The notes beneath the pieces were generated by a model that saw nothing but the letters and a program-made list of their open reading frames with translations, was not told where the DNA came from and did not search any database. From NCBI GenBank assembly GCA_020974905.1, contig CP087563.1, forward strand, positions 6,882,001-6,946,000: a DNA stretch of 64,000 nucleotides, given 5' to 3'. Shown here one piece after another: positions 35,217-50,194 of this stretch (the stretch's first letter is position 1; every line of letters starts with the position of its first letter). Made by a program: the position numbers and the translations under genes. Source of the stretch: Planctomycetes bacterium syqfu. Lineage in GTDB: Bacteria > Planctomycetota > Phycisphaerae > Phycisphaerales > Phycisphaeraceae.

Positions 35217-37439
35217 TTACGACACGTTGGCGGTCAGTGTCCATTGATCACCTGTGACGAATTTCAGCTTCAGGACTTTACCCGTGAGCACCTGCGTGTT
35301 GCCTTGCGGGTCGGTGAGATTCACATCGGTGTCCCACGGGTTTGCCAGCGACATTTGCGTGTCGCGTAGGGCGCTGAGTTTGATTTCCTGCACGACATAG
35401 TCCTGACGGCTGGCGGTAACGGTGACACCAAACTCGGTGGGCATCGGCTGGAAACTGCATGTTTTCCAGTGTCGCGGGACGCCGGGCATGATCTGCACGA
35501 CACCTCGGCGGGTATGCAGAAGCATTTCCTGAATCGCAGCGACCGCACCGAAGCCGGCATCAAGTTGCATGATCTCTTTGCGGTCACCTTTGCCGTGATA
35601 GGAACCGCCCATGATGCTGATGCCACAGGCTTCGATGTCGTGAAGCGTGCCATGTCCCTGGTTGGTGAAGATGCGTTCCCAGATTTCAAGCAACAACTCC
35701 GCAGCGATGCCGTTGTGTATGCGACTTTGGATCATGCTTGCCCAGGGCACACACCAGCCACTCCAATATCCCATGCCCCTGGCGACCCATTTATCCAGTG
35801 AGTTGCGGACGACGTTTTGGTATTGCTCATCATCGACATCAATGGTGTCGAAGGGCGCGATGCTGCCCAGATGCGAGTGGTGGCGGTGACTTTCTTGAAG
35901 GTCTTGGTTTTCCCAGAGCGCAATGGTTTGAAAATTGTGGTTCTGCACAGTCGTGATGCGGGGCAGGTTCTGCTGGATGTCCGCCCATGCCGGATCGTGT
36001 GCGAGATTCAGTTGGTCCGCTGCCTGCTGGAGGTCTTCAATGAGTCGGTGGATGGCAGCAAGTTGGAAGCTGGCATCGCGTCCCCATGCATTCATTTCTG
36101 CACCGTTGTACTCGGGACTCACGGAGACGGGCAGGTGATATAGCCCATCGGTTTTTTCGAGCATGGCTTGATAGACTTTGAACGTGCCGACCATGAAGGG
36201 ATAGACTTTTTCGCGGAGATAGTCCCAATCTGCGGTGTAGCGCACGTAGTCGAACATCATCATGGCCATCCACGCGCTGCAGGCATGGTCGATGCAACCG
36301 GTCCAGAATCCGCCCATGCAGACACAACGGTCATCCACCGCGTGGGGCATCATGATCCCGTCGTCAATCCCAACAAACAGACGGGCGTTTTCTCGGAGTG
36401 TGTCTTCCCACGAGAAGATCAGATCGAAGATCGGCCGCAGATGCGAGAGTCGGTTCCCACGGTAGGCAGGCCAATAGCACATCTGCACGTTGATGTTAAA
36501 GTGATAATCGCTGGACCATGGGGGCAAAGTATAGTCTTCAATCCACGGGCCCTGGAGTGTGCAGGCAATGCCATCGGGTTGCGAGCTGCATGCGAATTTG
36601 TACATGCCATAGTCATAGAGAAACTGCAATGTCTCGTTGGGCAAATCGAGTTGGGGGATGTCCTGCCAATAGCTTTGCCACCAGGCTTGGTTGGCTTCTT
36701 CGAGTGCAGGTAAACCCTGGGCGATGGCTTTGAGCAGACCTGCCTGAACTTGTTGACGCATTTGGTCGACGGTCTCGCCTCGGCAGTTCGTTAACCAGAG
36801 TGTCTTGCCGGTGAACTGGTATCCGACGGCGATGCCAGGATCGTTGGGGAAGGGCTGAATGAATCCGCCGAAGGTTGGATCGTCGATGTGGGTCGGTTCG
36901 TCGAAGCTGATGTCTTTGAGCTGATCACCGGTGGTGACGTAGGCCGGTTGGTTGAGGCATTGGCTGTACATCGTCGGATCATCAAAGATGATGGCAGCGA
37001 GTTGTTGCTCCATACTCAGCGTGATCGTGATGTTTTTCTCGACACCTTGATGCGTGCAGGTGATGGTTGCGATGCCGTTTGCCAGATCAAGTTTACCTGC
37101 GATGAGTTGGCAGTCATCTGAAAGTTGAATGTCCACGCGGCCGACGGGGATAACGCTGGGGCGGTGAGGCTGACCGGGTTGGTTTTCGGTGTCAGTGACA
37201 AACAGGGCGCGGAGAGAGGCTTCATCGTTGGCTTCCAGATGTTTGCGGATGTCAGCAAAATTCTGACAGGCTTTCCATGTCATCCCGCCACGATGATCCC
37301 AGAGGTCCGCCCGACCAATGGTGATTTTCAGCAGGTTGTCCTGGCCCCAGATCATCAGACCGGTGGTCGCGTTACCCAGGAGAAGACCGGTGTGCGTGCG
37401 GGGGAGCGGGAACTCCCAGTGAGCGGTGGAAAGTTGCAT
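35217..37439 (-). CDS. GH95-like glycoside hydrolase (alpha-fucosidase/galactosidase type)
   Basis: 740 residues, no signal peptide. Start ATG at 37437-37439 with AGGA upstream. GH95 landmarks: LLLGNATTGLMIWGQDNLLKITIGRADLWD at the N-terminus, SSDYHFNINVQMCYWPAYRGNRLSHLRPIFDLI (N-I-N, equivalent to the catalytic Asn pair of AfcA), HLPVSVSPEYNGAE (S-P-E, general acid), ESHRHHSHLGSIAPF, and MQLDAGFGAVAAIQEMLLHTRRGVVQIMPGVP (the Asp that activates the base; the usual N-F-G is G-F-G). The catalytic set looks complete. GH95 contains alpha-1,2-fucosidases and alpha-galactosidases; specificity is open. Divergent from the sialidase-like gene. Confidence 0.85.
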   Translation of the reverse strand: MQLSTAHWEFPLPRTHTGLLLGNATTGLMIWGQDNLLKITIGRADLWDHRGGMTWKACQNFADIRKHLEANDEASLRALFVTDTENQPGQPHRPSVIPVGRVDIQLSDDCQLIAGKLDLANGIATITCTHQGVEKNITITLSMEQQLAAIIFDDPTMYSQCLNQPAYVTTGDQLKDISFDEPTHIDDPTFGGFIQPFPNDPGIAVGYQFTGKTLWLTNCRGETVDQMRQQVQAGLLKAIAQGLPALEEANQAWWQSYWQDIPQLDLPNETLQFLYDYGMYKFACSSQPDGIACTLQGPWIEDYTLPPWSSDYHFNINVQMCYWPAYRGNRLSHLRPIFDLIFSWEDTLRENARLFVGIDDGIMMPHAVDDRCVCMGGFWTGCIDHACSAWMAMMMFDYVRYTADWDYLREKVYPFMVGTFKVYQAMLEKTDGLYHLPVSVSPEYNGAEMNAWGRDASFQLAAIHRLIEDLQQAADQLNLAHDPAWADIQQNLPRITTVQNHNFQTIALWENQDLQESHRHHSHLGSIAPFDTIDVDDEQYQNVVRNSLDKWVARGMGYWSGWCVPWASMIQSRIHNGIAAELLLEIWERIFTNQGHGTLHDIEACGISIMGGSYHGKGDRKEIMQLDAGFGAVAAIQEMLLHTRRGVVQIMPGVPRHWKTCSFQPMPTEFGVTVTASRQDYVVQEIKLSALRDTQMSLANPWDTDVNLTDPQGNTQVLTGKVLKLKFVTGDQWTLTANVS

Positions 37440-37563
37440 ATGCGTTGTCCTAAAGGGAAGCTGGTTTAAGTGCAGGATCGCGTGACTGAAGCATCCTAGC
37501 AGAGACGGGCAAGGTGACTATCCATGAAAGACGTCAGGATGTTCAATATTCCGCGATCGAAGA

Positions 37564-37597
37564 TTGACTTTTATGAAAATGCCAATATTGTATACAA
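37564..37597 (+). promoter_or_regulatory. Promoter with TTGTATACAA palindrome
   Basis: TTGACT (37564-37569), 16 nt, TATTGT (37586-37591) overlapping the perfect 10-bp palindrome TTGTATACAA (37588-37597), 36 bp before the sialidase-like start and inside the divergent gap to the GH95 gene. The 9-mer ATTGTATAC also lies on the -10 region of the lone pseudopilin promoter (12187-12195). It resembles GntR-family operators of the GTATAC type. Confidence 0.45.
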
Positions 37598-37632
37598 AAT
37601 AAATCATTCATAACACGAGACAGGTTGGCAAG

Positions 37633-38706
37633 ATGATCGAGAAATTCATAGTCAGTCGGGATGACAGCATTTACCAGGCTTGGCCCGACGTGGCGTTGCT
37701 GGAGTCGGGGAAGATGGTCTGTGTGTTCAGCACGTGTACGCATCACTTCAATCGCGCGTTTACGCAGATCGTCTGTGTGGAGTCGGATGATCGTGGCAGG
37801 ACGTGGTCTGAAAAAAGAATGATCAGCGAGCCACTGACCAAGCGTGAGTCCAGTGAACCGCATTGGAATTGTGCCCGCATCACTGCGCTGAATGACGGGC
37901 GACTGGTCGTGGTCTGTGATCGCATTCGAGGCGGTCATGAAGGCGCGGACGGTGAGCAGAGTAACTGGCTATGGTTCAGTGATGACGAAGGTCAGACATG
38001 GAGCGAACCCGTTGCGACACCGGTGGAAGGGATCGTTCCCGATCAACTGATCGAACTCAAACTCAAGCCGCAGGCAGGGCGTTGGATGCTTGCTGCACAC
38101 AAGGCGGCGTTGCAGGACGATGGCAGTCGACTCTGGAAAGAGCGTGCCTGGTACAGTGACGATCAAGGCCAATCATGGGAAGGACCGTTTGTTGTTGCAG
38201 CACAGAAAGACCTGATGCTCTGTGAAGGCAGCATTGTCGAAATGACCACCGGCGAGTTGGTCTGCCTCATGCGGGAAAATTCTGCACGCGGGTTGGATGT
38301 CTACCGCGCGATCAGTCGCGATGGCGGTAAGACATGGGGCGATCTGGCAACACTGCCGTTATCCGGTTGTCATCGACCGGTTGCTGGTGTTCTCAAGAGT
38401 GGGCATATCCTGGTGACCTACCGTTATCTGCAAGGTGGGGCAGGCATGATCGGGTGGGGGGCTCAGAACATGTTTGCTGCCATCATGGATCGCGCGTCCT
38501 GCCTGGCACCAGATCGGCAGCAGGCCAAGTGTCGGATCATGCCCCTGGACTTTGATCGCAGTGAACATGCAGACCTGGGCTACACCGGCCACGTTCAATT
38601 TCCCGATGGCGAAATCTATGTCGTCAACTACATCAACGACGACGCCCCCAAGGGCCACATCCGTGGTTATAGCTTCCGGGAATCGGATGTGATTCTGCCG
38701 GGGTGA
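37633..38706 (+). CDS. BNR-repeat / sialidase-like protein
   Basis: 357 residues, no signal peptide. Four Asp-box repeats (SxDxGxTW): ESDDRGRTW, FSDDEGQTW, YSDDQGQSW, ISRDGGKTW, evenly spaced as blades of a six-bladed propeller. The opening SIYQAWPDVALLESGKMVCVFST occupies the place of the sialidase R-I-P motif, which I do not see; ENSARGLDVYRAISRD and TYRYLQ follow. It could be an exo-sialidase-like or another propeller hydrolase. Divergent from GH95 across a palindrome-bearing promoter. Confidence 0.78.
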   Translation: MIEKFIVSRDDSIYQAWPDVALLESGKMVCVFSTCTHHFNRAFTQIVCVESDDRGRTWSEKRMISEPLTKRESSEPHWNCARITALNDGRLVVVCDRIRGGHEGADGEQSNWLWFSDDEGQTWSEPVATPVEGIVPDQLIELKLKPQAGRWMLAAHKAALQDDGSRLWKERAWYSDDQGQSWEGPFVVAAQKDLMLCEGSIVEMTTGELVCLMRENSARGLDVYRAISRDGGKTWGDLATLPLSGCHRPVAGVLKSGHILVTYRYLQGGAGMIGWGAQNMFAAIMDRASCLAPDRQQAKCRIMPLDFDRSEHADLGYTGHVQFPDGEIYVVNYINDDAPKGHIRGYSFRESDVILPG

Positions 38707-38729
38707 GGGTTGGCATTGATATTTGAAAA

Positions 38730-40370
38730 TTAACGGATGCGTATGGCCCTTTCATACGACCAGTTGCATTTTTGACCGTCTTTTTGAATGACACGTACTG
38801 AATACTTGTACCGTCCTTTTTCTAGTGTGTTGGAACTTATCATATGCTCCATGACATCTGCATTAAGGATATCCTGTCCGACAATGATCGTTCCATTGCA
38901 TGAAATCTCAAAGCCTGCTAGCTCATCGGTAGCGACACCATTGGGGAGTAATCGCCAATAAAGCTTGTATGTTTTGCTGCCATCGTCATTCTTTGTTGTC
39001 TTGATTGAGAAGTACGGAGCAGTGAAGTGAATGCCCGGTTGTAGAACAGAGATGTAAGCACTACGTCCTTGTCGGTCATACTGATCGACACCCATGACAT
39101 GGACAACATGTTCTTGTTCAGGATCAAGTTTGAATATGTGTTGGGTTTCTTGTGTCGCGATGAGTTCTGATTTAATCGAGCCGTATCCATTTGTTTTAGG
39201 GCTGGTCGATTGAATCAGATAGTTCATAGCATCTTTGGTTTGCTCCCATTTGATCAGCACATGTTCTGGTTTATCTTCGAGCCATTGATAACTGAGGTTG
39301 TTGGGTTGCCTTGGGGGGCTTCCAGGTGGCGTGTCTCTGACATTGACTTGACCACCGCCAATACTTTCAAGCGAAATAAAGCCATATTTCGTGACAGCTT
39401 TGACATGGTATTGATGAAGTGAATTCAAGGGTACGTTTTTAAATACCCACTGTGTTTGAGTAGCAGGGCACTGTGTTTCATCAATTAGTCGTTTGTTACG
39501 ATCAAAAATCTGAAAGCCTTTGAGCCTGTCGATCTCAGGATGCTCCCATGTCAGTGTGACAATGCCAGGTTGGGTGTAATCGTGAACAGCTTTGAGATTT
39601 TGTACACGCTCCACATATGAGCCGGGGATGAAGACCTTGACTTTTTCGGTGGGTTTGGCATCGCGGACACTCCAGGTAAGTTGCTCTTTGGGGCGGGCGG
39701 TGATCCAGCAATACCATGTGTCATCGAAGGCTGAGTGAATCTTATGCTTTTCACTGGTGATATCACGGCCGACTTTTTTATGCGTTCGGGTATTTTTGCC
39801 ATTGTCCTCCGCAATGCTCAGCCAATATGAATCAGTGTATTGATCGTCGTCTTTGGCTTTGTCCCATGACCATTGCAGATAGCGGTTTTCACCTTCCGTG
39901 ATGAGTTGTACTTTCAGACCTGTAGGGGTTGGTGTAAAGGGTTTTATTTTTGGCTTGGGTATCTTGGTGATAAACGGATAAGAAAGTAGAACCTTGCCAT
40001 GGTTATCTTGAATTTGAATTTTGTACTCAATGCGCAGATCGACAACGATCTCACGTTTGTGAAAAAAATTGCACCAGTGATTGTCTTTATCACCGAGTTG
40101 GATTTCATCGGCCAACTTGTACTCAGTCATATCTGGATATTTGTAAAGCAGCACTGCTTTGGTCGCGATAGGGCGATCTTTTTCCGGAAGTTTGGATTTT
40201 CTGGCCCACCAGTTAACCCCGATACCATCGTCTTTAAAGTACATGGTGAGTTGGTCGGATTTCAGAACGATCTGAGCTTGAGTCGGTGATGATGTCATGG
40301 CGTACATCAATGTCATCACGGGAAGAATGAATACAAAGTGATAACACAGTCTTGGCTGATTGGACATCAT
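38730..40370 (-). CDS. Secreted fibronectin type III-like repeat protein
   Basis: 546 residues from the ATG at 40368-40370, with GGAGGG 4 nt upstream. Signal peptide HFVFILPVMTLMYAMTSSPTQAQ. The rest appears to be several Ig/FN3-like domains, visible as W-x-x-x(3)-D and Y-x-V-x-A patterns: YLQWSWDKAKDDDQYTDSYW, VTLTWEHPEIDRLKGFQIFD, HQYHVKAVTKYGF, VLIKWEQTKDAMNYLIQS, YKLYWRLLPNGVATDELAGFEI. No enzyme motif. By eye its composition is clearly lower in GC (about 42-47% in sampled lines) than the neighbours (about 53%), so it may have been acquired. Function unknown; probably a surface or matrix protein. Confidence 0.75.
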   Translation of the reverse strand: MMSNQPRLCYHFVFILPVMTLMYAMTSSPTQAQIVLKSDQLTMYFKDDGIGVNWWARKSKLPEKDRPIATKAVLLYKYPDMTEYKLADEIQLGDKDNHWCNFFHKREIVVDLRIEYKIQIQDNHGKVLLSYPFITKIPKPKIKPFTPTPTGLKVQLITEGENRYLQWSWDKAKDDDQYTDSYWLSIAEDNGKNTRTHKKVGRDITSEKHKIHSAFDDTWYCWITARPKEQLTWSVRDAKPTEKVKVFIPGSYVERVQNLKAVHDYTQPGIVTLTWEHPEIDRLKGFQIFDRNKRLIDETQCPATQTQWVFKNVPLNSLHQYHVKAVTKYGFISLESIGGGQVNVRDTPPGSPPRQPNNLSYQWLEDKPEHVLIKWEQTKDAMNYLIQSTSPKTNGYGSIKSELIATQETQHIFKLDPEQEHVVHVMGVDQYDRQGRSAYISVLQPGIHFTAPYFSIKTTKNDDGSKTYKLYWRLLPNGVATDELAGFEISCNGTIIVGQDILNADVMEHMISSNTLEKGRYKYSVRVIQKDGQKCNWSYERAIRIR

Positions 40371-40528
40371 TGATCCCTCCAGAGTATCAAACGATAGAAT
40401 GATCTGTTTGAGTACTGATCTTACTCGGTCTTCCAACTCGTATCCATGCGATGATCATGAAGAAAACATGGTGACATTTATGTCCTAGTTCGCAAGATAT
40501 GAAAATTAGGTAGTTTACACTAAATTTG

Positions 40529-40577
40529 GGTTAGACTGCCTAACCGACTTGCATCGCCAATTACTTCCTGTTATATT
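40529..40577 (+). promoter_or_regulatory. marR-type gene promoter with dyad
   Basis: TTGCAT (40549-40554), 17-nt spacer, TATATT (40572-40577). Directly upstream is the dyad GGTTAG-ACTGC-CTAACC (40529-40545), and further up ATTAG...CTAAT-type half sites (40506-40526). Such dyads are normal MarR targets; autoregulation is inferred. Confidence 0.5.
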
Positions 40578-40623
40578 CTTTCGTGTTGAAACAATTTCAT
40601 CACAAAGAAAAAAGGAGAGCGTT

Positions 40624-41196
40624 GTGACTTTGGCTCCAACGCCCCCCGACATCTCAATTGACAGTCTGTCGTTATCCGAGGAAACTCCACGGATGACGGA
40701 CGATTTTTTTGCCAAGTATGGTTTTCGGATTTTGCGTGCGATGCGCAAGATGATCCGGGCTGTCGACATTCACTCCCGCAAACTCAACACCGAATTCAAG
40801 ATCACGGCACCGCAGATGATCTGCCTGTATTCACTGATGCAGGATGGGCCGATGACCTTGTCGGCTTTGGCTGAGTCGGTGAGCCTGAGTGCTTCGACCA
40901 CCAACGGGATTGTGGATCGACTTGAGAAGAAAAGTTTACTTGTCCGTCAGCGCGATCATGTGGACCGCCGCAAGGTATACCTGCATATCACTGACACGGG
41001 CAGAGAACTCACGACCCAGGCGCCGGCACTGCTTCAGGATCAGTTGTCCGACGCCTTACAGCACCTGCCGGAGTTAGAGCAGGCTGCCATTGCCTTGTCA
41101 CTGGAACGGGTGGTGGAGTTGATGGGTGCAGGTCACCTGGATGCCTCGCCACATCTGGTCCCCAATGATTCGATTGAACCCCAAAAGGAGGCCTAG
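40624..41196 (+). CDS. MarR-family transcriptional regulator
   Basis: 190 residues from a GTG at 40624; AAAGGAG 6 nt upstream decides the start. Winged helix of the MarR type at about 60-130: ITAPQMICLYSLMQDGPMTLSALAESVSLSASTTNGIVDRLEKKSLLVRQRDHVDRRKVYLHITDTGREL (shown in part by the D-x-R-D/R-R wing motif HVDRRKVY). It lies 239 nt before ablA on the same strand, with a 15-bp dyad in between, and is the likely controller of the osmolyte operon. Confidence 0.92.
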   Translation: MTLAPTPPDISIDSLSLSEETPRMTDDFFAKYGFRILRAMRKMIRAVDIHSRKLNTEFKITAPQMICLYSLMQDGPMTLSALAESVSLSASTTNGIVDRLEKKSLLVRQRDHVDRRKVYLHITDTGRELTTQAPALLQDQLSDALQHLPELEQAAIALSLERVVELMGAGHLDASPHLVPNDSIEPQKEA

Positions 41197-41326
41197 CTTT
41201 TCAGACAACGGGTACATGTTCATCAAGAGAGCATCTTGATTGACATATGACTGACTAGCGACGCACTTTTATCTCAAAACCCCCTTAATTCGATTTGATA
41301 CACGTTGTATTGCAGCGCCAGAACGT

Positions 41327-41341
41327 TGCAGACTGTCTGCA
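41327..41341. promoter_or_regulatory. 15-bp dyad upstream of ablA
   Basis: TGCAGAC-T-GTCTGCA, perfect 7-bp arms, 95 nt before the ablA start. A candidate operator for the neighbouring MarR protein or an osmotic regulator. Confidence 0.4.
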
Positions 41342-41435
41342 CCGACTTGATTTTCAGGTCGAATGTGAATGACGGTTTTCCATCGAAATTTTTTTCTGAC
41401 CCCGTGTTGCCAACCTTTAAAGAGAGGAACCGGCC

Positions 41436-42902
41436 ATGCCAGACATTGAATCCAACTTTTTAGACACCACCACTGTTTCTGATGTGCTTGATAATGTGCA
41501 GGATAACGACCTGCTCCAGTCACTTGCCGATGTGACCGTCCCAAGAGCACTCAAGGAAGAAACCCCGCCGGAAGATTTAGCTCATCGTCAATTTGAAGAC
41601 GCAGAGTTCTGGCGTCGTTTTGCGCCCTATGCCGACGTGTCACGCGAAGAGTTTCTGGACTACCGTTTCCAGAACAAAAAGAGCGTGCAGAATGTGGATC
41701 AATTGGCTGATCTGCTTGACGGTGTTGCTGATCCCAAGTTCATCCAGGACGTGAAGACTGGTCTGGATCAGGCGCCGATGAACATGCGCATTTCGCCTTA
41801 CCTGCTGTCTCTGATTGACTGGGACGAGCCGTACCGCGATCCGATCCGCATTCAGTTTATCCCGGTTGCTTCCAGTCGCATGCCGGATCATCCCAAACTC
41901 GAGCTTGACTCGTTGCACGAACAGGATGACTCCCCGACACCGGGTTTGGTGCATCGTTACCCGGACAAGGCTTTGTTCCTGCCGCTGGATGTTTGCCCTG
42001 TGTACTGTCGTTTCTGCACGCGGTCTTATGCCATCGGTGGCGACACCGACATGGTTGACAAGGTGAGTTACTCACCCAAGAGTGATCGCTGGCGCAGCGC
42101 CTTTGCATACATCGCATCGCGTCCTGAACTCGAAGACATCGTCATCAGTGGCGGTGACATGTTCATGATGCCTGCCAACAAGCTTGAAGAGTTAGGCATG
42201 ACGTTGCTTGCCATCCCGCACATCCGCCGCATCCGTTTTGCCTCCAAGGGTCCAGCCGTGATGCCGATGAAGATTCTTTCGGATCAGAAGTGGTTTGATG
42301 CGCTTTGTCGTGTCGTGGACAAGGGCCGTGAGATGGCCAAGGAAGTCTGTCTGCACACGCACTTCAACTCCACCAACGAGATCACCGACATCAGCCGCAA
42401 GGCCATGGACAAGCTCTTTAGACGCGGTGTCCAGGTGCGTAACCAGGCGGTGCTCATGCGTCGTGTCAATGACTCGTCGACCGAGATGACCAACCTGGTC
42501 AAGCAGCTGTCTTACATGAATGTCCAGCCGTACTATGTCTATCAGCATGACATGGTCCAGGGCGTTGAAGACCTGCGGACCACCGTGCGTCATACCATCG
42601 AACTTGAACGCCATGTGCGTGGTTCGACAGCTGGTTTCAACACGCCGATCTTCGTCAATGACGTACCCGGCGGTGGTGGCAAGCGTGACGTACACAGCTT
42701 TGATCACTATGACCCGATCACCGGCATCAGTGTCTATCGCAGCCCCGCGGTCAGCGACAAGGTGTATCTGTACTTTGATCCCCTGCACTTGCTGCCCGAA
42801 GAAGGCCAGGACCGTTGGAGCCGCGAATACGAGCATGAAGCGATGATCCGTGAAGCACTGTGTGCTGCCGATGCGCTGAAGCTGCAACGTGCTGTGGGGT
42901 AA
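41436..42902 (+). CDS. ablA: L-lysine 2,3-aminomutase (radical SAM, PLP)
   Basis: 488 residues; SD AGAGAGGAA. The radical SAM cluster motif CPVYCRFCTR has Cys187, Cys191 and Cys194 (C-x3-C-x2-C). Other family landmarks: ISPYLLSLIDWDEPYRDPIRIQFIP, IVISGGDMFMM, RIRFASKGP, VCLHTHFNS, VRNQAVLMRRVND, PYYVYQHDMVQGVEDLRTTV and DVPGGGGKRDVHSF (PLP-Lys region). It turns lysine into beta-lysine. The identification as AblA rather than a general KamA rests on the downstream beta-lysine acetyltransferase and the ABC importer. It is longer than clostridial KamA (416) because of an N-terminal extension. Confidence 0.92.
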   Translation: MPDIESNFLDTTTVSDVLDNVQDNDLLQSLADVTVPRALKEETPPEDLAHRQFEDAEFWRRFAPYADVSREEFLDYRFQNKKSVQNVDQLADLLDGVADPKFIQDVKTGLDQAPMNMRISPYLLSLIDWDEPYRDPIRIQFIPVASSRMPDHPKLELDSLHEQDDSPTPGLVHRYPDKALFLPLDVCPVYCRFCTRSYAIGGDTDMVDKVSYSPKSDRWRSAFAYIASRPELEDIVISGGDMFMMPANKLEELGMTLLAIPHIRRIRFASKGPAVMPMKILSDQKWFDALCRVVDKGREMAKEVCLHTHFNSTNEITDISRKAMDKLFRRGVQVRNQAVLMRRVNDSSTEMTNLVKQLSYMNVQPYYVYQHDMVQGVEDLRTTVRHTIELERHVRGSTAGFNTPIFVNDVPGGGGKRDVHSFDHYDPITGISVYRSPAVSDKVYLYFDPLHLLPEEGQDRWSREYEHEAMIREALCAADALKLQRAVG

Positions 42903-42929
42903 CTTCCCGTTATCGGAGGATCTTATTTG

Positions 42930-43071
42930 AACCGCCAAGACGCCAAGGACGCCAAGTTTAGAAAGAGCAAATCGCTTTTTGATATGGCGTTTGGAAAACT
43001 GTTTGGCTGTTCATTGATTCAATAGCATTGTAACTCTCTCCGACCTTGGCGTCCTTGGCGTCTTGGCGGTT
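42930..43071. repeat. 27-bp perfect inverted repeats inside the abl operon
   Basis: AACCGCCAAGACGCCAAGGA followed by CGCCAAG (42930-42956) and its exact inverse (43045-43071), 88 nt apart. Each arm is itself three GCCAAG(A/G)AC-like units. In RNA it would form a long stem between ablA and the transporter. The same motif type is, to my knowledge, common in intergenic DNA of diverse bacteria. Confidence 0.88.
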
Positions 43072-43106
43072 AAAAAGTATGTCCCGCCAGGTCGTGAACC
43101 AGGACT

Positions 43107-44558
43107 ATGAATAGATTTTTTTTAAATTCCTACCTGCTGTGGCTGGTGTGCTGTGCAGGTTTGCTCGTTGCGATGATCAAACCTGCGCACGCGCAGCCGA
43201 CAGCAGACGAAAAACCGCTACGTGTCGCATTGACTGGCAAGTTTCCCCCGTTTAACTATTACAACGAGCAAGGGGAGTTGGCCGGCTTTGATGTCGATGT
43301 CGCCAATGCGATCGGAAAACGCATCGGCAGGGATATCGAATTTGTTGCTACCGAATGGGACGGCATTCTCGCTGGCCTGCTCGGTGGGAAGTTCGACACC
43401 ATCATCGGCTCAATGGCAATCACGCCCGTGCGTGCCAGGCAGGTCAATTTCTCCAAGCCGTATTATCACTCCGGTGCACAGCTATTTGTGCATCGTGATA
43501 ATCCTGCCCAGGTCTACAGCATCAATGAATGTGATGGCCTGAAAGTCGCAGCGGTGCTGGGTGAAACGTACCAGCAATATCTCGATCAAAATTATCCGAG
43601 TATCGAGGTGGTCACGCTCAAGAGTTCAGTGGAAATTTTCGAACTCCTCCAGCAACAACGTGTCACCGGTTTCGTCACCGATAAACTCGTCGGATCATGG
43701 CAGATCAAACAGGCGGATCGACCCTTCGTCCCTGTCGGTGGCATGCTCTACTCCGAAGACATCGGCATACCCGTCCGCAAGGATGACACCAAACTGCTCG
43801 AGCAGATCAATACCGCCCTGGATCAGATCAAGTCCGATGGCACGATGAAGAAAATTCATCAGAAGTACTTCGGCTTATCCGCGACGGTCAGCGGCTCAGG
43901 CAAGTCAACCATGTCCGACGCGGTGATCGCAAAGAAACTCATCAAGGGTTTTGCAGTCACCATTGCCATCGCGGTCGCGTCACTTGCCATCGGCTTTGTG
44001 CTGGCGATTCCTTGTGGTGTGATTCTCAATAAACCCAAAGGCAGCATGGTCATTCTCTATTGGCCGGTGCGAACCATCGTGGACTTTTTGCGTGGCACGC
44101 CGGTCCTCATCCAACTGCTTTTTGCATGGATGGGTTTGGGGCTCTCGCCTTTCACCGCTGCCATCGGCACACTGGGGATCAATGCCATGGCCTACATGGC
44201 TGAAGTCATCCGCAGTGGTCTGATGAGTGTGGATCAGGGGCAGGTCCTGGCTGCCAAAGCACTAGCCATGAATCGCATGCAGACCTTCCGACACGTGGTC
44301 TGGCCTCAGGCGTTTCGGGTTGCAATACCGCCATTGATGAACTGTGTCGTTGCATTGACCAAGGACACCGCATTGGTTGCGGTCATCAGTGTTTCAGAAG
44401 TCATTCGCGAAGCCCAGGCGATTATCAGCGTGACTTTTGAACCGACCAAGTATTACTTCATCGTGGCAGTGATGTTTTTTATCGTGACTTTCCCGCTGAT
44501 GAAATTTGCAAGCATGCTCGAACGTCGCATCGCGCAGAGGGGGTTTAGCCGTGATTGA
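43107..44558 (+). CDS. Amino-acid ABC transporter, fused binding protein and permease
   Basis: 483 residues. Signal/anchor SYLLWLVCCAGLLVAMIKPAHAQ, then an SBP_bac_3 domain (about 35-265: LRVALTGKFPPFNYYNEQGELAGFDVDVANAIGKRI, IIGSMAITPVRARQVNFSKPYYHSGAQLFV, GTMKKIHQKYFG). A HisM/GlnP-type permease follows (about 280-480: IVDFLRGTPVLIQLLFAWMGLGL, GINAMAYMAEVIRSGLMSVDQGQVLAAKALAMNRMQTFRHVVWPQAFR). Such fusions import polar amino acids. Lying between ablA and ablB, the expected cargo is lysine (or a betaine-like/beta-amino acid); this is inferred. The stop overlaps the ATPase start by 8 nt. Confidence 0.92.
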   Translation: MNRFFLNSYLLWLVCCAGLLVAMIKPAHAQPTADEKPLRVALTGKFPPFNYYNEQGELAGFDVDVANAIGKRIGRDIEFVATEWDGILAGLLGGKFDTIIGSMAITPVRARQVNFSKPYYHSGAQLFVHRDNPAQVYSINECDGLKVAAVLGETYQQYLDQNYPSIEVVTLKSSVEIFELLQQQRVTGFVTDKLVGSWQIKQADRPFVPVGGMLYSEDIGIPVRKDDTKLLEQINTALDQIKSDGTMKKIHQKYFGLSATVSGSGKSTMSDAVIAKKLIKGFAVTIAIAVASLAIGFVLAIPCGVILNKPKGSMVILYWPVRTIVDFLRGTPVLIQLLFAWMGLGLSPFTAAIGTLGINAMAYMAEVIRSGLMSVDQGQVLAAKALAMNRMQTFRHVVWPQAFRVAIPPLMNCVVALTKDTALVAVISVSEVIREAQAIISVTFEPTKYYFIVAVMFFIVTFPLMKFASMLERRIAQRGFSRD

Positions 44559-45246
44559 AATTCGTGATCTCATTTACACGTATCCCAATGCCGATGAGCC
44601 GGCACTCAAGCAGTTGTCCGTACAGTTCCCGCGGGAAAATGTCTTTGCAGTCCTTGGGCAAAGTGGCTCGGGTAAGACGACGTTGCTTAACTGCATCGCA
44701 CGTTTTCTCACGCCCACGTCCGGCTCGATTCACATTGATGACAGGAACATCGCGGACATGACCGAGTTGGAATTTCGCCACACCCTTGGCGTGGTCTTCC
44801 AGCGTCTGAATCTTTTCCCGCATCTCTCGGTGTTGCGCAATCTGACTTTGGCGCCGGAGAAAGTGTTTGGCACAACGCTCTCCGATGCACGCAAGCAAGC
44901 TAGAGAAATGCTCGATCGACTGGGGATCGGTGACCTGGCGGATCGTTACCCCGCGCAAATCTCCGGTGGGCAGGCGCAGCGTGTTGCCATCGCCCGCGGG
45001 TTGATGCTTCAACCCAGTTACATGTTGCTGGACGAGCCGACGTCGGCACTTGATGCCCAGACCACGCAGGACTTTGCTGCCTGGTTGACCGAGCTTTCCA
45101 GTGAAACCAGTTTTATCATTGTGACCCATGACTTGCCGTTTGCCGAGATGGTCGCCTCGCATGGCGTATACCTTTCCCAAGGCGAAATTCAAGCGACCGG
45201 CAATGTCGCAGACATACTCCAACAGGTTCAACAACCCACATCATGA
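44551..45246 (+). CDS. Amino-acid ABC transporter ATP-binding protein
   Basis: 231 residues from a GTG at 44551, decided by AGAGGGGG upstream and by 8-nt overlap with the permease. Walker A GQSGSGKT (about 36-43), Q-loop VVFQRLNLFPHLSVLRNLTLAP, signature ISGGQAQRVAIARGL, Walker B YMLLDEPTSALD, H-loop IIVTHD. GlnQ/HisP type, energising the fused permease. Its stop overlaps the ablB start (ATGA). Confidence 0.95.
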   Translation: MIEIRDLIYTYPNADEPALKQLSVQFPRENVFAVLGQSGSGKTTLLNCIARFLTPTSGSIHIDDRNIADMTELEFRHTLGVVFQRLNLFPHLSVLRNLTLAPEKVFGTTLSDARKQAREMLDRLGIGDLADRYPAQISGGQAQRVAIARGLMLQPSYMLLDEPTSALDAQTTQDFAAWLTELSSETSFIIVTHDLPFAEMVASHGVYLSQGEIQATGNVADILQQVQQPTS

Positions 45247-46109
45247 CTGATACCACAACAATCGATATGCAGACTGACACCATTGAAAATATTGGACATT
45301 CCACCATTCAACATGGCAAAATGAATGACCGGGTTTACCTCATGAAACTCGATCCGACTGATCGACATGCATTGCCCGAGCAATTGATCGGACTGGCCAA
45401 AGAGCAAGGCTACTCAAAGATCTTCACCAAGATTCCCGGCATTGCGCGACAGGATTTTGCCAAAGCCGGTTTCGCGCTCGAAGCCTCCATCCCCGGTTTC
45501 TATCAGGACAAGGGCGATGCGCTTTTCATGAGCCGCTTCCTGGCAGACAAACGACGTAAGTCATCATACCTGTCACGCAACTGCGAAGTTCTCGAAGCCT
45601 GTCGCAGTCGTCGGCAGGGGGGCGACAAACGCACCTTACCCGACGGCTATACCTTGCGACTGTGTACCGAAGCGGATGTGAATGTCATGGCTGAAGTTTA
45701 TGCTGAGGTCTTCCCGACCTATCCCTTCCCCATTGATGATCCGGCATATCTGCTCCAAACCATGAAGTCGCATGTGGCTTACTTTGGCGTCTGGAATCAG
45801 GATGGCAAACTCGTGGCGCTTGCTTCATCAGAAATGGATCGCAGCAGCGCCAGTGCCGAGATGACCGACTTTGCGACACTCCCCGAAGAACGTGGTAAAG
45901 CCCTGGCGACCGTCCTGCTTCACGAGATGGAAGATGCCATGCCCGGTTACGGCATCAAGACCGCCTACACCATCGCCCGCGCACCGAGCTTTGGTATGAA
46001 TATCACCTTCGCCCGCATGGGCTATGTCTTCGGTGGTCAACTCATCAACAACACCAATATCGCAGGTGGCTTTGAAGACATGAACGTCTGGTACAAGTCG
46101 CTGTCTTGA
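45243..46109 (+). CDS. ablB: Beta-lysine N-acetyltransferase
   Basis: 288 residues, start in the ATGA overlap with the ATPase gene (translational coupling). The whole sequence fits AblB: KIFTKIPGIARQDFAKAGFALEASIPGFYQDKGDALFMSRFL in the first half, then the GNAT part with VMAEVYAEVFPTYPFPIDDPAYL, AEMTDFATLPEERGKALATVLLHEME, and the typical end LINNTNIAGGFEDMNVWYKSL. With AblA it makes Nε-acetyl-beta-lysine, a compatible solute known from methanogens and some bacteria. The acetyl-CoA loop reads PEERGKALA. Confidence 0.93.
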   Translation: MTDTTTIDMQTDTIENIGHSTIQHGKMNDRVYLMKLDPTDRHALPEQLIGLAKEQGYSKIFTKIPGIARQDFAKAGFALEASIPGFYQDKGDALFMSRFLADKRRKSSYLSRNCEVLEACRSRRQGGDKRTLPDGYTLRLCTEADVNVMAEVYAEVFPTYPFPIDDPAYLLQTMKSHVAYFGVWNQDGKLVALASSEMDRSSASAEMTDFATLPEERGKALATVLLHEMEDAMPGYGIKTAYTIARAPSFGMNITFARMGYVFGGQLINNTNIAGGFEDMNVWYKSLS

Positions 46110-46215
46110 TGCCTGTTGATACAAATGACTCAAAAATCAGAATATCCACGGATTTCGCATTGACATTTGCGTCTCAGATGTTGGAATAGACCCCCAATTC
46201 TGGAGACCCTTTGTC

Positions 46216-48180
46216 ATGTCATCACATCCCAAACGCCTTAAGCGTTCCGAAAGTTTTGTCGGACTTCATTTTGACTTTCATGCCCGTACGGATTGCACGC
46301 AGGTTGGCAAGACGGTCACCTTGGACATGCTCCAACGCATGCTCGCGTTGACCAAGCCCGACTACGTGCAATGTGATTGCAAAGGGCATCCGGGCTATGC
46401 CTCTTATCCCACCCAAGTTGGCACACCTTCACCGGGATTCACACAGGACCCGCTCAAACTCTGGCGTCAGGCAACCGCTGAAGCAGGCGTGAGTCTGTAC
46501 ATGCATTATTCAGGCGTCATCGACGAGAAAGTAGCCAGCGATCACCCGGAATGGGCATCGCTCGATTCGGAGGGTAAACCACATAAAAATGGTTCGACGT
46601 CGGTCTTTGGTCCCTATGTCGACCAGGTCCTCATCCCCATGTTCCGCGAGTTGGCTGATGATTATCAAGTCGATGGCGTGTGGATTGATGGCGAGTGTTG
46701 GGGCCTGACGATGGATTACTCGGAGCATGCGCTTAAGGCCTGGCAAAAAGCGACCGGCAAAAAAACATTCCCTGTTGACAAGGACGACCCGGATTGGTTC
46801 GCCTGTCAGCAATTTCATCGCCAGGGTTTTCGCGATTACGTTTCGCATTACATCTCCGAAATGCGCAAGACCCATCCGGACTTTGAAATTGCAAGCAACT
46901 GGGCGTTCTCCGGACACATGCCTGAAAAGGCGACGTTGGATGTCGATTTTATTTCCGGCGATGTCACACCCACCAACGGCTTTAACCGCGCGTGTCTTGA
47001 AGCACGCATCATGGAAGGCCAACCCCGCCCGTGGGACCTGATGGCATGGGCTTTTAACGGACGCTGGGCCAAAGGCGATTCAAGTACCAAATCGGTGATC
47101 CAGCTTTGTCAGGAAGCCGCTGCCGTGTTAGCGATGGGGGGCGGATTTCAGGCTTATTTCACGCAGAAACGTGACGGATCGATCTACGAATGGCAGATGC
47201 AGGTATCCAAGGGGATGATCGACTTCTGTCGTCAACGTCAGGCGAGTTGTCATCGCGCAACACCCATCCCGCAAGTCGGTTTGATTCTCAGCAGTGAAAC
47301 CTATTACCGCCAACCCGATGCCTTGTTCTGCCCATGGGGGGGATTCTATGAACCGATGGAAGGACATCTTCGCAATATTCTGGATAACCAATACGCAGTG
47401 CAAATTCCCTTGCCCTGGCAGTTGGAAGAGGACATCGAGCGCTTCCCCTTGCTGGTGTATGGCGAGTGGAAACAAATCAGCCCGGAGATGAAAACGCGCT
47501 TGGTTGAGTATGTCCACAACGGCGGTAAGTTACTCCTCATCGGTCCCGACAGTGTTGTACATTTTGCAGAGGAACTTGGCGTCGCCGTTAACCGGGTTGA
47601 TGATCAGACGCGCTACGTCCAAACGCAGGCTGGCATCATGGGTAACTTCCAGACACCGATGATGGATGTCACAGTGGTTGAAGATGACGTTGAGGTGACG
47701 CATTGGTTTTACCCACGTAATGAACCGTTGGAGGCCCAAACACCAGCCTGCACCATCCGGCCGATGGGTAAGGGACTGATCGCTGCGATCCACATGGACC
47801 TTGGCAAACGTTATGCGACAGCCCGGACCACCGCCGCCCGTGATGTGATGGGAGACATGCTCAAGCGACTGTTCCCCGATCCGATGGTGAAGGTACAGGG
47901 GGCACACCATGTCGATGTGGCTGTGAATCAGCAGGGCGGTGATCTGATGATCAACCTGATCAATTCTGCTGGCAATCATGCGGATCAAAACTGCTACACA
48001 TTCGACGAACTACCACCACTGGGTCCGCTGGTCATGGATGTCACGCTAGAAAATCCACCCCAGCAAGTGCGTCTGCAGCCCGGTGATCGTGCGTTTGACG
48101 AGGTGTCATTTGAAGATGGCACTCTGCGTGTCCTCATCCCGCGTTTGGAACTCCATGAGATCATCCAGATCACGCCATGA
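46216..48180 (+). CDS. GHL6-type putative glycoside hydrolase
   Basis: 654 residues, no signal peptide; SD GGAGA. TIM-barrel part (about 15-350): FVGLHFDFHARTDCTQVG, MLALTKPDYVQCDCKGHPGYASYPTQVG, LYMHYSGVIDEKVASDHPEWA, YQVDGVWIDGECWG, EIASNWAFSGHMPE, AVLAMGGGFQAYFT. These match what I know of hypothetical glycosyl hydrolase 6 (PF14871), related to fucosidase-like barrels. A flavodoxin-like trimerisation domain (LVEYVHNGGKLLLIGP) and a beta domain follow. Likely a cytoplasmic exo-glycosidase; substrate unknown. The next gene is a LacI regulator. Confidence 0.8.
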   Translation: MSSHPKRLKRSESFVGLHFDFHARTDCTQVGKTVTLDMLQRMLALTKPDYVQCDCKGHPGYASYPTQVGTPSPGFTQDPLKLWRQATAEAGVSLYMHYSGVIDEKVASDHPEWASLDSEGKPHKNGSTSVFGPYVDQVLIPMFRELADDYQVDGVWIDGECWGLTMDYSEHALKAWQKATGKKTFPVDKDDPDWFACQQFHRQGFRDYVSHYISEMRKTHPDFEIASNWAFSGHMPEKATLDVDFISGDVTPTNGFNRACLEARIMEGQPRPWDLMAWAFNGRWAKGDSSTKSVIQLCQEAAAVLAMGGGFQAYFTQKRDGSIYEWQMQVSKGMIDFCRQRQASCHRATPIPQVGLILSSETYYRQPDALFCPWGGFYEPMEGHLRNILDNQYAVQIPLPWQLEEDIERFPLLVYGEWKQISPEMKTRLVEYVHNGGKLLLIGPDSVVHFAEELGVAVNRVDDQTRYVQTQAGIMGNFQTPMMDVTVVEDDVEVTHWFYPRNEPLEAQTPACTIRPMGKGLIAAIHMDLGKRYATARTTAARDVMGDMLKRLFPDPMVKVQGAHHVDVAVNQQGGDLMINLINSAGNHADQNCYTFDELPPLGPLVMDVTLENPPQQVRLQPGDRAFDEVSFEDGTLRVLIPRLELHEIIQITP

Positions 48181-48304
48181 TCCGACGGATGATACATCAT
48201 CTGCAATTTGTCAAGATTGGCTTAACACACTGAAACGGTGTTGGTTATCGATGGTGATCATGGCTGTGTTTTAAGCAAATACCAATAACCTGCGATTCAA
48301 ATCC

Positions 48305-48363
48305 TTGACTGGCCAATTTCGCTGCCTATGATTAGCGCAAATACTTGCGCAAGTATTTGCGCT
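48305..48363 (+). promoter_or_regulatory. LacI gene promoter with 30-bp perfect palindrome
   Basis: TTGACT (48305-48310), 16 nt, TATGAT (48327-48332), then a 30-bp palindrome at 48334-48363. Its left half is AGCGCAAATACTTGC and its right half the exact inverse. It contains two overlapping GCGCAA-N4-TTGCGC dyads plus the central TTGCGCAA. The palindrome covers the expected transcription start 15 bp before the ATG: a textbook autorepression site. Confidence 0.78.
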
Positions 48364-48377
48364 TCTTTGGAGACGAT

Positions 48378-49415
48378 ATGGCATCCGGTAACACGATCCA
48401 ACTCAAACGCATTGCCCAGGAAGCATCAGTGTCCATTGGCACGGTTTCCCGCGTGCTCTCAAACAAAGCGCAGGTCTCCGACAAGACGCGTAAGCGTGTG
48501 CTCAAGGTGGCCAAGGATCTGGATTACCGACCCAACCGTCTGGTCCACGCCATCCAGTCCGGCAAGACCCAGACCGTTGGCGTGCTTCTCAAATCATCAC
48601 AGGAAGTTCATTCCAAGATTCTCATGGGCATTCAGGAAGAACTCTTCGATCGCGATCATCTTGCCTTGACGGTTCATGGTCGCAAAATCGACCCCGAGCA
48701 TCCTGAAGTGACCAATGAGTTGCAACTGCTTCAACGCTTTGTCGAACACCGTGTCGATGGCATCATCATTTGCCCGATGGAAGACCGAACGCCTGATGAC
48801 GCGATTCGTGAGCCGTGGATGCCATCGCTGCCGATGGTCAGTGTCGACCGACGCCTGCCGGGGACGAATGTTGATTTCGTTGGCATTGATGACGTGGAAG
48901 GCGCGCGTCAGGTGATGGGCTATCTTTTTGAGTTGGGGCATCGTCGCATTGCCCACATCACCGGCCCGTCGAATTTCAGCACCTGGGCGCTGCGTCGACA
49001 GGGTTATGAACAGGCGATGCAGGAACGCGGTTTAACACCGAGGGTTGAAGTGGACCCGGATCATCTGTGTGGGCTGGATCAGGCCCGCCGTCTGTTGTCT
49101 GGTCATGACCGTCCGACCGCCATTTTTGTGTCGTCGGATCTTTTAGCCATGGCCGTCTATCAGGCTGCTGCGGAGAATGGACTGTCGATCCCCGGTGATC
49201 TGTCGGTGGTCGGATTTGCGGACATGCGTTTTGCTTCGCTGGTCACACCTGCCTTAACCAGTGTCAAGCAGTTTCCCGAAGAGGTTGGCAAACGAGCTGT
49301 CACCATGATGTTTGATCGCATGGAAGGCAAGTTCCCCGATGGCCAACCGCAGAGCATTTGCCTTAAGCCGGAATTGGTCGTGCGACAATCCTGTGCACCT
49401 TTTAAATCAAAATAA
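48378..49415 (+). CDS. LacI-family transcriptional regulator
   Basis: 345 residues from the ATG at 48378 (GGAGA upstream; an earlier in-frame ATG at 48345 lies in the operator). HTH at about 6-50: IQLKRIAQEASVSIGTVSRVLSNKAQVSDKTRKRVLKVAKDLDYRPNRL. Sensor: VDGIIICPMEDRTPDDA, PMVSVDRRLPGTNVDFVGIDDVEGARQVMGYLFELGHRRIAHITGP, PTAIFVSSDLLAMAVYQAA, DLSVVGFADMRFASLVTPALT. It sits between the GHL6-type gene and the pseudopilin cassette 3. Confidence 0.95.
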   Translation: MASGNTIQLKRIAQEASVSIGTVSRVLSNKAQVSDKTRKRVLKVAKDLDYRPNRLVHAIQSGKTQTVGVLLKSSQEVHSKILMGIQEELFDRDHLALTVHGRKIDPEHPEVTNELQLLQRFVEHRVDGIIICPMEDRTPDDAIREPWMPSLPMVSVDRRLPGTNVDFVGIDDVEGARQVMGYLFELGHRRIAHITGPSNFSTWALRRQGYEQAMQERGLTPRVEVDPDHLCGLDQARRLLSGHDRPTAIFVSSDLLAMAVYQAAAENGLSIPGDLSVVGFADMRFASLVTPALTSVKQFPEEVGKRAVTMMFDRMEGKFPDGQPQSICLKPELVVRQSCAPFKSK

Positions 49416-49435
49416 CCCTTAAAACAGGGGTTATT
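49411..49435 (+). terminator. Hairpin overlapping the lacI stop codon
   Basis: AATAACCC (49411-49418) / GGGTTATT (49428-49435) with a 9-nt loop. No T run follows, so it may be a weak terminator or mRNA-end hairpin rather than a full terminator; it precedes the pseudopilin gene by 36 nt. Confidence 0.45.
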
Positions 49436-49471
49436 CGTCATTGGGCTGGTCTTGATTGTTGGAGTTATCTC

Positions 49472-50194
49472 ATGAAGCACGACATGGATTCATCTCGACG
49501 CCGCAAGGGATTTACCTTGATCGAATTGCTGGTGGTCATCTCAATCGTCTCGTTGTTGATTTCGATTTTGTTACCTGCGCTCAAAAAAGCGCGCGATTCG
49601 GCACAGGCGATCAGTTGTCTGAACAATGAAAAACAAGTGTCTCTGTGCATGACGATGTATCTCAACGATCACAAGGGGCATTTCCCGATACATAAGATCA
49701 GTGTCAGCACACCCAGTGGTGGACGCTATTACTGGAACGATTTGCTCAAGCGATACATCAACGAAGAAGTGCCGGTCCCCGGTGTCAGCCCAGATTATTG
49801 GTTTAGTGATGCTTCGCCGTTACCCGAGTCATTCAAGTGCCCAACCCTGATTCCATTGGATGCGCCTTCGACCGCGTACAGTGGCATTGGCTACAACAAC
49901 TACGGACTCGGCCAGGACCTTTGGCCAGGGTGGCGGAAACTGACTGACGTGAAACATCCGAGCCAGATTCTGGTACTCGGTGACGGTCAGGCCAAACGGA
50001 CATGGAGTGATAACCGCATTATTGGTTCGGCCAGACTCACCACCGGCTCAATGGTTTCCTATCGCCATCCGGGGAAAGCTGCCAACATCTTCTTTGTCGA
50101 TGGTCACGGTCGAACGGCGCAGGTTCAAGAGCTGGGGACGACGTGGTCGACGTTTTATCACAAATTTCCTTGGATGGAATCGGATTGGAACTGA
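49472..50194 (+). CDS. Pseudopilin-type protein, cassette 3
   Basis: 240 residues, ATG with GGAG 8 nt upstream. DSSRRRKG precedes [20 protein letters not shown], then KKARDSAQAISCLNNEKQVSL. It ends with NIFFVDGHGRTAQV (D-G-H). The layout is as in the other two cassettes: LacI gene upstream, large secreted hydrolase 32 nt downstream. The soluble domain differs strongly between paralogues, hinting at different partners or ligands. Confidence 0.92.
   Translation: MKHDMDSSRRRKGFTLIELLVVISIVSLLISILLPALKKARDSAQAISCLNNEKQVSLCMTMYLNDHKGHFPIHKISVSTPSGGRYYWNDLLKRYINEEVPVPGVSPDYWFSDASPLPESFKCPTLIPLDAPSTAYSGIGYNNYGLGQDLWPGWRKLTDVKHPSQILVLGDGQAKRTWSDNRIIGSARLTTGSMVSYRHPGKAANIFFVDGHGRTAQVQELGTTWSTFYHKFPWMESDWN

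Follow-up and report, generated by a model that had tools for sequence, protein, structure and literature searches.

Between its ablA- and ablB-type genes, the genome of Planctomycetes bacterium syqfu (a single contig of 7.38 Mb) carries the genes of an amino-acid importer of the ATP-binding cassette (ABC) type. We found this arrangement in a 64,000-nt stretch of the genome, in the following called the window: on one strand lie, in this order, genes for a MarR-family regulator, an AblA-like enzyme, a substrate-binding domain fused to a permease, the importer ATPase and AblB. We consider it probable that the cluster encodes a two-enzyme pathway with a dedicated importer and a MarR regulator, in which the importer takes up a substrate of the pathway, likeliest lysine, and the product is an osmolyte. 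Lysine would be converted to β-lysine by a divergent mutase of the KamA family and then N-acetylated by AblB, and the resulting Nε-acetyl-β-lysine would build up as a compatible solute. The importer, inserted between the two enzyme genes and with the MarR regulator in front of the cluster, would be dedicated to this pathway; its substrate would belong to the pathway, and most likely the importer would supply the synthesis with lysine, or with an amino acid resembling it. The gene content, the overlaps, the recurrence of the arrangement, the clade and signature of the binding domain and the conservation of the mutase's lysine-binding residues are direct results; the enzyme activities, the substrate, the osmolyte role and the control by MarR we infer.

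Organization of the abl cluster

The features of the cluster are listed in Table 1. The fusion gene and the ATPase gene share 8 nt (44551-44558), the ATPase gene and ablB share an ATGA (45243-45246), and the spacer together with the importer module (42903-45242) parts the two enzyme genes, which are adjacent in the canonical abl operon. Gene order, strand and both overlaps had been claimed in a first-pass annotation of this DNA and are borne out by coordinates, sequence and domain searches. The longest frame of the MarR gene begins at a TTG codon at 40549. Across the five products the cluster is 94-98% identical to that of its closest named relative, the Phycisphaeraceae metagenome-assembled genome L069 (genomes and loci carry our own numbers, G and L). 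In the abl operon of methanogens, as described for Methanosarcina mazei (PMC1224877, in excerpt), genes for a lysine 2,3-aminomutase-type enzyme and a β-lysine acetyltransferase are likewise clustered in the order ablA-ablB, but the window adds the importer between them, a MarR gene in front and another type of ablA.

Table 1. Features of the abl cluster (positions in the window)
Feature	Position	Strand	Evidence
MarR-family regulator	40624-41196	+	GTG start behind GGAG site; PF01047 7.8e-16, 58.2 bits
Divergent (type II) AblA-like KamA-family radical S-adenosylmethionine enzyme, probable lysine 2,3-aminomutase	41436-42902	+	TIGR00238 above, TIGR03820 below cut-off; residues; tree; model
Dispersed palindromic element in the ablA-importer spacer	42926-43075		42-nt arms, 88% complementary, 66 nt between
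Fused substrate-binding domain and permease, PAAT-type amino-acid ABC importer	43107-44558	+	PF00497 and PF00528
Importer ATPase	44551-45246	+	PF00005 4.9e-37; 8-nt overlap with permease gene
AblB, β-lysine N(ε)-acetyltransferase	45243-46109	+	TIGR03827; ATGA overlap with ATPase gene

A divergent mutase combined with AblB

The product of the ablA gene had been taken for the usual enzyme, an identity that did not hold: it scores 273 bits with the lysine 2,3-aminomutase equivalog TIGR03820 (cut-off 525.4), and the zinc cysteines are gone. The score with the KamA family model TIGR00238 is 247.5 bits (cut-off 199.2). The CxxxCxxC motif is kept (C187, C191 and C194), and D372, D409 and K416 correspond in the alignment to the two lysine-binding aspartates (D293, D330) and the pyridoxal phosphate lysine (K337) of the Clostridium enzyme 2a5h. 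Two unlinked KamA rows have the same six residues, which are thus not specific to AblA. C268 and a C-terminal cysteine cluster, presumably the zinc-binding cysteines, are both present in 5/5 canonical rows, whereas in 7/7 rows of the window's type, type II, C268 is replaced by Ser or Thr and the cluster is absent; C268 is also missing from two unlinked KamA rows. An AlphaFold model (pTM 0.75) matched 2a5h best, with Z 37.3 and a root-mean-square deviation of 2.6 over 334 residues; the next entry reached Z 16.5. In a tree of the KamA family (47 of 110 collected rows) the enzymes of the window, L069, L070 and the genus g239 split on a long branch from canonical AblA and the unlinked planctomycete KamA rows, with support of 100/100. 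Judged by these comparisons, the window enzyme probably makes β-lysine from lysine; lacking the zinc site, it would add a second type to the presumed lysine 2,3-aminomutases. Type II occurs in 5 of 392 genomes of the phylum, always clustered with AblB; beyond the window genome it was found there only in g239, with 63-64% identity.

AblB scores 347.1 bits with the β-lysine acetyltransferase model TIGR03827 (cut-off 205.1). Among the 198 class genomes searched, 9 encode a protein above this cut-off, as do 12 of the 392 phylum genomes; the seven other family members that the class sample lists gave no AblB match. The window AblB groups with canonical loci and not with g239; resolution is weak in the AblB tree and in that of MarR, and the latter leaves the grouping undecided. 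Since AblB and the binding domain of the importer fall in groups of canonical loci while the mutase is of type II, the cluster is, by these groupings, a mosaic.

The importer belongs to an abl-linked clade

The 483-aa fusion contains SBP_bac_3 (150.7 bits) and BPD_transp_1 (71.5 bits), and the ATPase contains ABC_tran (128 bits), with the Walker A motif GQSGSGKT, the ABC signature SGGQ and the Walker B motif LLDEP read directly. PF00497, PF00528 and PF00005, together with the HEQRo-type permease model TIGR01726 (58.8 bits, cut-off 42.2), mark it as a PAAT-type importer. As in GlnP-type importers of this family, the binding domain is fused to the permease and the ATPase is separate; unlike them, the window fusion has one binding domain and not two, another signature and a linkage to abl genes.

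Matches to the fusion with more than 50% identity were found in 3 of the 392 phylum genomes: the window genome and G510, both with the importer in the slot between ablA and ablB, and G424, whose copy lies on another contig than its abl genes; all others are at most 37% identical. G424 itself (L156 6712-9177 and L161 8922-10986) has a canonical ablA and a divergent ablB (below cut-off) in opposite orientation, apart from the contig of its importer module. Three genomes of g239 (G296, G379 and G419) carry a second fused importer, 31-37% identical, 3′ of the divergent ablB, and two Bacillota loci encode a separate binding protein with 45-47% identity, 3′ of ablB in L087 and upstream on the opposite strand in L090. 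We compared 15 such binding domains with 9 unlinked planctomycete homologues (chosen from 24 unlinked matches, in genomes without AblB match) and 3 solved proteins. The 15 domains form one clade (99/97), of which 14 members are abl-linked (9 in the slot, 3 in g239, 2 in Bacillota) and one is the unlinked copy of G424. A GSMAIT and a GAQ motif are common to 15/15 clade members and absent from the other 12 proteins. The absence of this signature from 9/9 unlinked homologues examined suggests that the importer serves the abl pathway specifically. Sister of the clade (98/98) is TTC0807 of Thermus thermophilus (3vv5), the structure of which was solved with S-2-aminoethyl-L-cysteine, a lysine analogue; TTC0807 is, however, without the GSMAIT and GAQ motifs.

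A transporter slot in abl loci

A survey of abl loci for linked ABC genes, proposed with the first-pass annotation, found ablA and ablB separated by the ABC module in nine distinct genomes and, elsewhere, by symporter or MscS-like genes. The nine are the window genome, L069, L070, L071, L078, L092 (G029, a Phycisphaerae metagenome-assembled genome), L101 (G007), L111 (G510) and G111, with the three that carry two numbers counted once. The arrangement had been regarded as unusual: the importer in the slot is real, but it is not unique, as eight other distinct genomes share the order. Binding domain and permease are two separate reading frames in G029, and the contig of G111 begins inside ablA. 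Among the nine class genomes with AblB, the slot holds the ABC module in four (the window genome, G007, G029 and G111) and a symporter-type gene in two (G056, and G018 with an MscS-like gene in addition), while ablA and ablB are adjacent in three (G140, G063 and G069). Beyond the phylum, the counts rest on a single scan, which kept, out of at least 506 relatives, the best 80 by likeness to planctomycete AblB and is biased in this respect. Adjacency, said before to be the usual state, is indeed the commonest in this sample (51/80 loci), followed by 12 loci with a symporter-type gene (among them L108, with only a 225-bp piece of it), 7 with the ABC module, 3 with an MscS-like gene plus symporter and 1 with an MscS-like gene; 6 are without resolvable upstream ablA.

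The symporter of G056 scored 180.1 bits versus 184 for the symporter superfamily model, its best equivalog being PutP (160 bits, cut-off 515.5), and the MscS-like protein of G018 (E 2.4e-13) lies below every equivalog cut-off. MscS-like genes stand between ablA and ablB in L033 (6482-8852), L081, L109, L112 and L123, in all except L081 together with a symporter-type gene. The green sulfur bacteria L079, L085, L094 and L127 have the symporter version of the slot; green sulfur bacteria are reported to accumulate Nε-acetyl-β-lysine (a 2011 study by Triado-Margarit, cited by title in PMC9337991). The symporter-type loci of Chlorobiota, Kiritimatiellota, Lentisphaerota and others resemble the window in having a transporter in the slot and often a MarR gene upstream, but their transporter is of the sodium:solute-symporter family, with or without an MscS-like gene, and is unrelated to the ABC importer. 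The locus is best seen as a transporter slot within abl loci.

The importer module comes and goes among abl loci. With the loci placed on an AblA tree (49 chosen canonical rows), six changes are needed to account for the six ABC loci and eight for the fifteen symporter loci; the starred branches of this tree force just two ABC changes and one symporter change. L037 and L083 share 90-95% DNA identity across ablA, ablB and the flanks, and only L037 has the ABC module: L083 (junction 7143-7144) is without L037 675-2791, both being draft assemblies. As the last bases of the ATPase gene were left behind, L083 appears to have cleanly deleted the module. G028 has only abl remnants; in its locus L040 (8062-8520) the first part of ablA is followed almost at once by the last part of ablB, as an internal deletion would leave it.

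Substrate of the importer and fate of the product

The importer in the abl slot is thus real and more widespread than the first-pass annotation had assumed; its use for lysine uptake is plausible, and recapture of the product is a serious rival. The earlier proposal that uptake, probably of lysine, is coupled to conversion stands as far as ablB is overlap-coupled to an amino-acid importer and the link between importer and abl genes recurs; with lysine as the ligand it is only plausible. A search with family models for a ligand gave a cystine protein as best equivalog, at 164.6 bits versus a cut-off of 312, and no ligand was assigned from it.

Several results weigh against lysine uptake and accumulation, and the importer may serve another amino acid. 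The binding domain scores 161.9 bits with the lysine/arginine/ornithine-binding (LAO) model TIGR01096, whose cut-off is 256.35. An acidic residue at position 43 (window numbering) is absent: the window protein has Thr where TTC0807 has Glu, and Thr or Ser occupies this position in 15/15 clade members, whereas Glu or Asp is found in eight of the nine unlinked homologues (Asn in one) and Glu, Glu and Asp in the solved proteins. Position 43 presumably corresponds to D11 of LAO, the acidic residue for the cationic side chain, a ligand contact that we assume from LAO and HisJ. A structure search with a model of the fusion of moderate quality (pTM 0.49) singled out no lysine binder: the best match, an engineered glutamine-binding protein (Z 27.4), was tied to within 1 with a pneumococcal domain (Z 27.3) and the GlnPQ domains (Z 27.0), and TTC0807 ranked 39th (Z 23.1). 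Lysine riboswitches were absent from window positions 36000-50000 and, at gathering scores, from nine related loci. Furthermore, the mutase type of the window sits in g239 among genes that look lysine-catabolic, and the lack of CoA-transferase subunit A in the window genome (0 matches) is a weak negative, obtained with no positive-control genome. We nevertheless regard lysine as the likeliest ligand and recapture of Nε-acetyl-β-lysine as the next.

Under this second explanation, the importer clade, and elsewhere the symporter in the slot, would recapture Nε-acetyl-β-lysine that has leaked or been released via MscS-type channels and so save its resynthesis. We hold it to be rather unlikely, although a number of observations fit. 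The Thr or Ser at position 43 in every clade member is expected if the side chain of the ligand has no free ammonium. PutP transports a zwitterion, and the scanned symporter has PutP as its best equivalog, at a score far below the cut-off. MscS-like genes share the slot in 4/80 loci and in G018. The module overlaps ablB but is parted from ablA by a spacer, and it follows ablB in L087 and g239; the missing lysine riboswitch points the same way. On the other hand, the nearest solved relative in the tree, TTC0807, was solved with a lysine analogue, and family-3 binding proteins normally read α-amino acids, whereas Nε-acetyl-β-lysine is a β-amino acid. A contact of position 43 with the ligand is presumed by analogy with LAO and HisJ, and an acid there also occurs in homologues of other specificity, for example a glutamine transporter domain, so its loss points to no single ligand. 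A wider scheme, in which the private importer clade and the PutP-like slot symporters all take up Nε-acetyl-β-lysine, synthesis, MscS release and recapture are encoded together, and the g239 members of the clade supply the solute, or its precursor, to be broken down as food, is a speculation to which we give slightly less weight still.

The locus could also serve lysine catabolism, with import, isomerisation and acetylation for breakdown; lysine breakdown can proceed through acetylated β-lysine. In g239 (L152 2325-11907, L153 and L154) MarR, type II mutase, divergent AblB, fused importer and ATPase genes are followed by genes for a class III aminotransferase, two CoA-transferase subunits and an ArgE/DapE-type deacylase, apparently forming a lysine-catabolic operon; the contig of the fourth genome, G451, stops after ablB. 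The type II mutase, among the phylum genomes, is otherwise confined to this genus, where it comes with MarR and the divergent AblB, and 3/4 of its contigs continue to an importer with the same signature and the catabolic-type genes. The Bacillus kamA-yodP...yodT genes, which we take to be a lysine-degradation operon, include mutase and acetyltransferase genes as in the window, but also aminotransferase, CoA-transferase and deacylase genes, which g239 has. None of these four genes lies within the window, however, and in the whole genome the deacylase query gave two weak matches (34% over ~104 aa, and 26%; no positive control) in addition to the negative for CoA-transferase subunit A. AblB and the binding domain moreover group with canonical loci and not with g239, and we judge the catabolic explanation improbable. 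Aminotransferase-like genes with 26-35% identity are also present in L112, L138 and L147. A β-lysine catabolic module was not found in the window genome; this speaks for, but does not prove, a product that builds up, most likely as a compatible solute.

That a general amino-acid importer merely landed between ablA and ablB would agree with the loss of the module in L083 while ablA and ablB stay, with the scatter of ABC loci over the AblA tree, where 6 rows need 6 changes, and with the module of G424 on a contig without abl genes, but it is the least probable explanation, as one binding-domain clade with a private signature tracks abl genes through several arrangements in three phyla and two unrelated transporter families fill the same slot.

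The arrangement had been called little described in planctomycetes, which agrees with the literature accessible to our search (in part in excerpt, most subscription journals lying outside it): only a soil transcript study (PMC5368272) mentions acetyl-β-lysine together with planctomycetes, and no paper combines aminomutase, planctomycetes and compatible solute. Within the same scope, searches for the solute with planctomycetes, symporter, transporter or uptake, and for aminomutase or β-lysine with planctomycetes or Kiritimatiellota, returned no abl-linked importer, and neither an uptake system for Nε-acetyl-β-lysine nor a dedicated lysine supply was found. The locus offers one binding-domain clade that can be tested with few ligands. 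It also suggests that the mutase and acetyltransferase can work as a pair in osmoprotection or, alternatively, in lysine breakdown, a point to consider when abl genes are annotated.

Spacer, regulation and neighbouring genes

The spacer between ablA and the importer genes measures 204 nt and holds an inverted repeat with 42-nt arms and a predicted fold of -85.4 kcal/mol. The repeat arm has 42 matches in the genome at ≤2 mismatches (its own two arms included) versus 0 for the reversed pattern. A remnant of the element is kept in the spacer of L070. At the corresponding place in the sibling genome L069 (L069 5689-5812) lies a palindromic element of another type, unrelated to that of the window. 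Stretches of the L069 type (76-91% identical) occur in the window near 2724, 9875, 35072 and 55334. Importer and ablB are tightly coupled; since the spacer with its inverted repeat intervenes, a common transcript with ablA is only an assumption. Of the single operon claimed earlier, the coupling of the importer genes to ablB by overlaps was upheld, but its extension across the hairpin spacer to ablA stays hypothetical.

A MarR gene lies directly upstream of ablA in 16/80 abl loci, and a MarR homologue directly 5′ of ablA is also present in G018, G056, G063, G069, G423 and four g239 genomes; we regard MarR as a probable local regulator of the cluster. Between 36000 and 50000 of the window no Na+, cyclic di-AMP or lysine riboswitch was detected (E up to 1). 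Two RNA models matched there below the gathering score, one for a microRNA, at the inverted repeat, and one for a snoRNA; the six RNA matches in the nine related loci were of the tRNA, cobalamin and Acido-Lenti-1 families. Scans for promoters and terminators gave site numbers no higher than in shuffles.

The abl cluster seems to lie among carbohydrate-utilisation genes. On one side, the region 46216-49415 contains a LacI regulator and a glycoside-hydrolase-like gene with weak Pfam hits (46216-48180); on the other, 35217-38706 was assigned to carbohydrate utilisation by eye only. The stretch 38708-40472 (~1.8 kb, with one minus-strand gene) has ~0.2 kb in its place in L069, where both flanks match at 88-92%.

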